Source: Pseudomonas sp. BSw22131
GTDB lineage: Bacteria > Pseudomonadota > Gammaproteobacteria > Pseudomonadales > Pseudomonadaceae
Length of the DNA: 64,000 nucleotides
Assembly (NCBI RefSeq): GCF_026810445.1
Contig: NZ_CP113949.1
Span: forward strand, 744,001-808,000
Direction of reading: 5' to 3'
The position numbers and the translations under genes were made by a program. Positions 45,064-45,806 of this stretch are shown here, in pieces. Within the stretch, counting starts at the first letter, position 1, and each line of letters starts with the position of its first letter. The notes under the pieces are model-generated. The model saw nothing but the letters and a program-made list of their open reading frames with translations, had not been told where the DNA came from and did not search any database.

Positions 45064-45100
45064 ACGCCCTGAGTGAATTTCACTCGGGGCGTTGTTTTTT
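45064..45100 (+). terminator. Intrinsic terminator of the bra operon
   Basis: ACGCCCTGAGTG (45064-45075) pairs with CACTCGGGGCGT (45081-45092), with one G-T pair, around an AATTT loop, followed by TGTTTTTT. Confidence 0.92.
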
Positions 45101-45591
45101 CACAATTGTGGAAAACAATTTTGAAAGGGTGCCAAAGCGCGACATAAAGTCGCTGCAAATGGTTGTTTTGTCACGGTTTCGACTTGTTCAGTTTTACTGT
45201 GGAACCGGCTGTGAATAAGTTGGGAGTACTTGGCTGAAAGCCTTGATCGGCATGGGCTGTAGCGTTTCGGCTAAATTATGATCAGTCATTTCAGGCGATA
45301 TTTCGATGGGGTTTGTCAACGCGCTGCAGACTGTTTTTTTATACAGGTCTAAGATGATGTTCTCCTGTGGATAAGTCTGTGTGCAACCATTGGAAAGACC
45401 CCCGCAGACAGCGCAATCTGTGCCTTGCAGCCCGGTTTCCTGTCCGACCGTCCAGGGCTGACCGTAATTTCGCCGCAGATTGGTTTCAGCAGGTCAAGTA
45501 AAAATTCCCACTGATCGCGCGCAAGCCGTGTATGACAAGGGCTGGGCTTTTTCGAGTTGCCCCCAGAGACTGTGGGCCTGACTGTGGATAA
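45096..45591. promoter_or_regulatory. Cluster of DnaA-box sequences in a gene-free region
   Basis: On the + strand TGTGGATAA (exact reverse of TTATCCACA) occurs at 45366-45374 and 45583-45591. TGTGAATAA is at 45210-45218 and TGTGGAAAA at 45107-45115, all in one orientation and all fitting TTWTNCACA. TTTTTCACA at 45096-45104 faces the last of these but overlaps the bra terminator. TGTGGAACC at 45198 is a poorer match. This could be a DnaA-binding locus (titration, reactivation or accessory origin type) or DnaA control of the adjacent SDR gene. Confidence 0.55.
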
Positions 45592-45806
45592 GGTGGGCAA
45601 AACTGTCCGCAGCCCCGATGGCATAAGGCTTTGGTTGGTCTGTATGTTTTTTGTACAGGTTGGGTGTTTGTGTGCAGCCTTGATGGGACCGCTTGCCCCT
45701 GAGCCCTGTGCGCGGGCATTCTTCAGAACTTTCTTGCGCGTGACTTTGATCAACCGCGTCCATTGCTTATTCATGATCCCGCAGCCCCCTTAATAAGGAG
45801 AACGAA
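45104..45806. other. Gene-free 0.7-kb stretch before the SDR gene
   Basis: No convincing coding frame is present. Besides the DnaA boxes it holds AT-rich tracts (around 45150-45200 and 45270-45310) and a repeated unit: CTGTTTTTTTATACAGGT at 45331-45348 and CTGTATGTTTTTTGTACAGG at 45640-45659. It presumably also carries the promoter of the SDR gene. Confidence 0.6.

Follow-up and report, generated by a model that had tools for sequence, protein, structure and literature searches.

The intergenic region that separates braG from the SDR gene (45036-45806, plus strand) is, on balance, best read as an array of DARS-like modules, two of them full and one partial, which would help to time initiation at oriC, by analogy with DARS1 and DARS2 of E. 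coli. Unless a genome position is given, coordinates refer to the window, the whole stretch of 64,000 nucleotides that was analysed. The modules consist of three DnaA boxes in a fixed geometry, followed by a GC-rich dyad and a Fis-like site in a fixed register, and they are conserved well beyond the genus. Since the strengths of their boxes differ from those in E. coli, the array is called DARS-like, and titration of DnaA is kept as the main rival reading.

A cluster of DnaA boxes that is not due to chance

The gap extends from the braG stop at 45035 to the start of the SDR gene at 45807 and has a GC content of 50.5% vs 58.3% for the window. An earlier note had described in it two exact TTATCCACA boxes on the minus strand (45366-45374 and 45583-45591) and two further TTWTNCACA matches in the same orientation, TTTTCCACA at 45107 and TTATTCACA at 45210, all of which are confirmed, and had judged a chance cluster unlikely. 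This judgement is borne out by the counts. The whole window holds three exact boxes against 0.14 expected from dinucleotide shuffles and ten TTWTNCACA matches against 2.8, neither of which was reached by any of 100 shuffles, and at the genome-wide rate the probability of at least two exact boxes in the 771-bp gap is about 1e-4, and a chance cluster was rejected on these counts. The genome (5.74 Mb, with dnaA at 5.737 Mb) contains 105 exact TTATCCACA sites compared with 18 for the pattern read backwards. Two features had escaped the earlier note, namely a plus-strand TTTTTCACA at 45096, which occurs in this register only in the window's own locus (1/30), and the arrangement of the boxes as parts of repeated modules together with degenerate partner boxes.

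When the braG-SDR stretch is used as a query, a DNA match is found in 47 of 57 genomes, and the window's own locus was aligned with the 29 best-matching of these. The conservation of the boxes in relatives, which the earlier note had proposed as a check, is evident from this alignment, in which 27 of the 30 same-genus braG loci have two minus-strand TTATCCACA boxes in the same order and on the same strand. The sequence between the boxes is conserved in blocks within non-coding DNA. An extra DnaA box, TTTTCCACA (45107-45115, minus strand), lies outside the modules and is conserved as well, keeping its spacing to the TTATCCACA of the partial module B, which it precedes by 259 bp in 20 of the 30 loci and by 260 bp in three. 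Two loci (L016 and L030) deviate from the pattern in the aligned stretch, and the genome of the latter has modules about 1 kb beyond braG.

The array remains beside braG with or without a close SDR gene, while the next gene varies. This argues against DnaA-dependent control of the neighbouring braG operon or SDR gene, a reading that is in principle founded on the ability of DnaA to act as a transcription factor (PMC8203912, in part) and that we regard as very unlikely, given that modules elsewhere in the genome and in other families have unrelated neighbours and that a promoter scan of the gap returned a single promoter-like match, the same number as in shuffles. Control of either gene was rejected on the varying neighbours and the shuffle-level promoter match. 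A terminator-like hairpin of the bra operon is located upstream of the array (45063-45093, plus strand), although the consensus scan that found it also expects 1.0 such hairpin in shuffles.

Being dispersed, repeated and intergenic and containing a dyad, the modules could also be taken for a structured or coding RNA, or for a REP-like mobile repeat without a replication function. This is the most improbable of the readings considered here: the gap has no Rfam match and the modules show no RNA structure (0 consensus pairs), which led to the rejection of a structured RNA, and a conserved protein was likewise discarded as no reading frame is kept among the 30 loci, where the longest frames vary in both position and strand. 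Moreover, the copies are few, occupy orthologous positions across the genus and occur class-wide at about two per genome. The only Rfam matches of the window are two tRNAs, the tandem tRNA-Leu(CAG) genes on the minus strand at 12124-12210 and 12421-12507.

Architecture of the modules

The module is about 104 bp long and is composed of a forward box I, a reverse box II 14 bp further on, a reverse box III after another 12 bp, a GC-rich dyad and a Fis-like site. In the unit pattern, five bases separate a TTGCCCMCA-like box I from the reverse box II, and three separate the latter from the reverse box III; beyond it come a dyad with the pattern GGCTGCAGGCC...GGCTTGCAG and then an AT-centred palindrome. 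A LexA site was considered for this AT-rich palindrome and dismissed on a misfit in spacing, judged by eye. The window contains two full modules, A (45184-45285) and C (45557-45658), and a partial one, B (45364-45432), all in plus orientation; units A and C can be aligned almost without gaps over about 104 bp with four units from the gap beside gbcA.

Two sequence-only profiles were used to search for further copies. R1 was built without E. coli from the window and gbcA units, its source alignment comprising 42 of 60 prepared unit sequences (19 loci with two each and four from the gbcA locus). R2 was built from 69 aligned R1 hits, all from Pseudomonadales, and is therefore not independent of R1; its rows contain repeats (overlapping loci L079/L096, L080/L097 and L054/L058). 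The E-values of the models are rough, and searches over 40 genomes were run with stricter filters.

Module A is full length and scores 53.2 bits with R2 and 69.8 bits with R1. Its box I, TTGTTCAGT (45184-45192, plus strand), has three mismatches to TTWTNCACA and its box II, GGTTCCACA (45198-45206, minus strand), has two, while box III is the perfect TTATTCACA at 45210-45218 on the minus strand, the 45210 match of the earlier note. The GC-rich dyad follows at 45231-45266 (plus strand), where the model also matches the minus strand weakly (4.4 bits), and the module is completed by a predicted Fis site, GGCTAAATTATGATC (45269-45283, plus strand). Module B (19.7 bits with R2) keeps the dyad region along with boxes II and III and lacks box I, whose position has six mismatches, and the Fis-like site; box II is the first of the two exact boxes, TTATCCACA at 45366-45374, and box III, TTGCACACA (45378-45386), has two mismatches, both lying on the minus strand. 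Module C is again full length and is the top module of the genome by R2 (64.5 bits). It consists of box I TTGCCCCCA (45557-45565, plus strand, three mismatches), box II AGGCCCACA (45571-45579, minus strand, four mismatches), the second exact box TTATCCACA as box III (45583-45591, minus strand) and a predicted Fis-like site, GTATGTTTTTTGTAC (45642-45656, plus strand).

The Fis-like 15-mer was assessed with two forms of the consensus, one published and one looser. Both full modules of the window carry the 15-mer in the same fixed register, module C agreeing with the looser form only and module A with the published one as well, which is GnnYAnnnnnTRnnC (PMC8682772 and PMC4585315, each in part). 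Among the distinct full-length modules (for Pseudomonadales, the 48 non-repeated rows that are 99 bases or longer), the published consensus is found at module offset 80-94 in 17 of 48 from Pseudomonadales and 23 of 29 at class level, and the looser form at this fixed offset in 38 of 48 and 23 of 29, compared with at most 3/48 and 1/29 for the looser form in control windows, some of the enrichment being built in because these positions belong to the model. An IHF consensus is mostly absent, occurring in 5 of the 48 Pseudomonadales and 10 of the 29 class-level modules with their flanks. This bars only the designation 'DARS2-type', since DARS1 is reported to be active without protein factors (PMC4585315).

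Likeness to DARS1 and DARS2 of E. coli

Both E. coli loci, DARS1 in the bioD-uvrB intergenic region and DARS2 upstream of mutH, have box II 14 bp after box I and box III 12 bp after box II, in the same orientations as the modules. In the bioD-uvrB and mutH stretches, R1 matches best at the core of DARS1 (10.7 bits) and at that of DARS2 (10.6 bits), both with filters off. With R2 the scores rise to 26.2 bits for DARS1 and 16.8 bits for DARS2, and these are the sole matches at E up to 10 in 154,004 E. coli bases, among which are oriC, the datA interval and the promoter of dnaA. Comparison by eye with the published deletion primers (PMC4585315, in part) places the DARS1 match between those for DARS1, and the match L118:1136-1170 is the stretch between those for deletion of DARS2 boxes I-III. 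The three-box core with its spacing is present in both full modules of the window, module B being without box I.

The likeness to DARS1 does not end at the boxes. Its match runs for 46 bp past box III without a gap (model positions 37-82), with the DARS1 dyad GGCAAGC...GCGGCTTGC in register with that of the modules, and the match thus takes in the functional segment next to box III of DARS1; full activity of DARS1 is reported to require its three boxes together with 42 bp adjoining the last of them (PMC4585315, in part). The DARS2 match past box III is weakly supported and extends to model position 64. Of the explanations that the earlier note had offered, titration, reactivation or a second autonomously replicating region, it is reactivation that is favoured by analogy, because the modules share the box geometry of DARS1 and DARS2 and DARS1 shares the segment after box III.

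The differences concern box strength, copy number and the position of accessory sites. DARS1 is a single copy with strong boxes I and II and one mismatch in box III, its R2 match ending at position 82 and hence having no Fis-like site in register, and neither DARS1 nor DARS2 has more than one mismatch in any box. In contrast, the full modules of the window have none in box III, three and three in box I and two and four in box II, as counted against the consensus, which is not a measure of binding. Box strength is thus inverted relative to E. coli, as it is box III that is strong in the window, next to weak boxes I and II, whereas boxes I and II are crucial for DARS2 (PMC4585315, in part). DARS2 works with Fis and IHF (PMC8682772 and PMC4245941, each in part), the sites for which lie in a larger region of 455 bp (PMC8682772, in part), whereas the Fis-like site of the modules is located inside the unit of about 104 bp.

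That the gap holds a latent second origin of replication, or a region able to replicate autonomously, is quite unlikely. The cluster of DnaA boxes and the lower GC content of the gap (50.5% vs 58.3%) would be in keeping with it, two such regions have been published for Pseudomonas (PMC4403523, in part), and the oriC of Pseudomonas has TTATCCACA boxes like the array. However, R2 scores only 7.6 bits on the oriC of the same genome and 10.7 bits on that of E. coli (filters off) compared with 53 and 65 for the two full window modules; the array is flanked by braG and the SDR gene, with no dnaA, dnaN or rpmH alongside; and the module is found at several loci of the genome and singly in many other genomes, and this part of the earlier proposal has gained no support.

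Occurrence in the genome, the genus and the class

Among the matches listed, R1 has 11 at E <0.001 in the genome of the window, which fall at bra, gbcA and positions 4.777, 4.843, 2.575 and 0.459 Mb, and R2 adds a module at 1.690 Mb, giving about seven loci. The gbcA locus is a second array, 0.40 Mb from oriC on the side opposite to bra, with four tandem DARS-like modules spaced by 161-192 bp (genome positions 5335038-5335664), flanked by a gbcA-like gene on one side and etf genes on the other. An etf-like gene there is accompanied, about 1.6 kb away, by a second, partial copy of itself (L036:1841-2170 and 3440-4258), and each contains one TTATCCACA. The single module at 1690200-1690301, beside a DUF1232 gene, has perfect boxes I and II of E. 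coli-like strength and could be this genome's canonical DARS. A group of six TTATCCACA in 1.2 kb (85815-87028) lies inside a reading frame of 609 amino acids, and an R1 search of this cluster (85.8-87.0 kb) found no module.

Modules are present in all 17 further genomes of the genus that were selected as complete or divergent (E up to 0.01), with 4-21 hits per genome among the matches listed. On 14 complete chromosomes, 66 loci were mapped, and 56 of them are located at 11-35% of the replichore from dnaA, on both arms, a count from the matches listed in which strong loci are favoured and weak ones missing; among the exceptions are the two loci of G014 and two of G029 that lie far from dnaA. 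As the loci of the genus are mostly orthologous, they do not represent independent events.

These positions are as expected for sites that are duplicated early, and they are compatible with a role in titration, the less probable though serious alternative to reactivation. It would hold that the modules are kin to DARS and have its geometry, that with their weak boxes I and II they mainly hold DnaA on the strong box III, and that such a reservoir, duplicated together with the arms flanking oriC, buffers free DnaA after initiation. The raised copy number in the genus would agree with this, as would the density of exact boxes near oriC, where 44 of the 105 TTATCCACA sites of the genome lie within 150 kb, about 5% of the chromosome length, and the combination of a perfect box III with degenerate boxes I and II in the window and most other modules of the genome. 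However, titration alone would require neither a fixed spacing to a degenerate box I nor the dyad nor the Fis-like site, all of which are maintained almost without insertions or deletions. The modules resemble E. coli datA in that the latter is a non-coding cluster of DnaA boxes away from oriC, but R2 gives only 8.7 bits (filters off) in the 15-kb interval in which datA presumably lies, without the module geometry, and the IHF consensus expected of a datA-type site is mostly absent from the modules. In B. subtilis, several DnaA-box clusters outside oriC affect free DnaA, and a review describes DARS loci as absent there (PMC13220808); the array can be likened to these clusters by that description in so far as there are several of them.

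Beyond the genus, R1 finds modules in 155 of 245 order-level genomes and 76 of 109 genera (E up to 0.001), and R2 in 201 of 232 class-level genomes and 173 of 197 genera (E up to 0.01), in both cases among the matches listed. The class-level genomes usually have 1-3 R2 matches each, mostly full length and about two per genome. Their aligned modules have strong boxes I, II and III (37 aligned rows; mean mismatches 0.5 in box I and 0.35 in box II) and the palindrome TTGGTCA-T5-TGACCA. A spacing test that is free of the models serves as the control for the class-wide claim. In 104 class-level genomes TCCACA, TGTGGA and TGTGGA were sought in succession with free gaps of 0-20 bases (441 combinations), which was aimed at avoiding circularity, and 72 triplets were found in 48 genomes, of which 65 have gaps of exactly 5 and 6 bases, the spacing of DARS; the backward control of this pattern gave two matches. 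The strict pattern has no match in 56 of the 104 genomes, nor in the window's own genome, which it misses because the boxes there are degenerate.

Outside the Pseudomonas family the modules share no common distance from dnaA (94 loci in 34 genomes; among 36 genomes one had no dnaA match, and one set of loci was dropped for it). Single modules in other families adjoin a ribonucleotide reductase gene (L124) or priA (L130 and L132). Tandem modules are seen outside the Pseudomonas family too (L115, L128 and L141), and arrays have therefore arisen or persisted more than once. According to a 2014 paper, conservation of the DARS2 core is specific to those gamma-proteobacteria that are related to E. 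coli (PMC4245941, in part), and a species comparison in PMC8682772 covers seven species and reaches Vibrio cholerae. For DARS in Pseudomonas, no paper was found in searches of the open-licence PMC literature. A paper on the parS 'competence zone' provided no link.

A possible mechanism of DnaA reactivation

If the array functions in reactivation, DnaA would assemble on three boxes of fixed geometry, with box I facing box II and box III in tandem behind box II. By analogy with E. coli DARS1 and DARS2, ADP-DnaA would bind head to head on boxes I and II and head to tail on boxes II and III. The flanking segment with its dyad, and a nucleoid protein that is probably Fis, would then distort the complex so that ADP is released, whereupon DnaA could rebind ATP and regain its activity in initiation. 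Together with about five other loci of the same family in the genome, the array would thereby contribute to the timing of initiation at oriC, and both arms would have their arrays duplicated at some point after initiation.

A wider and more tentative proposal, which we consider possible although somewhat short of probable, is that DARS did not originate in E. coli and its close relatives but is an ancient gammaproteobacterial module made up of three boxes in fixed geometry, a dyad and a Fis-like site, of which E. coli DARS1 and DARS2 would be partial descendants. The tandem arrays into which Pseudomonas would have expanded it, located at several loci on both arms and with inverted box strengths, would in this case form a distributed system for recharging DnaA that times initiation.

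The findings suggest that Pseudomonas and many related bacteria possess an expanded version of a control of replication timing known from E. coli. In Pseudomonas and most of the sampled genomes of the class, the modules are named DNA targets for which each part carries a clear prediction. They make it possible to test directly how DnaA is restored to its active state in bacteria that do not belong to the E. coli group. In turn, the constant place of the Fis-like site and the inversion of box strengths would bear on the workings of DARS in E. coli itself.
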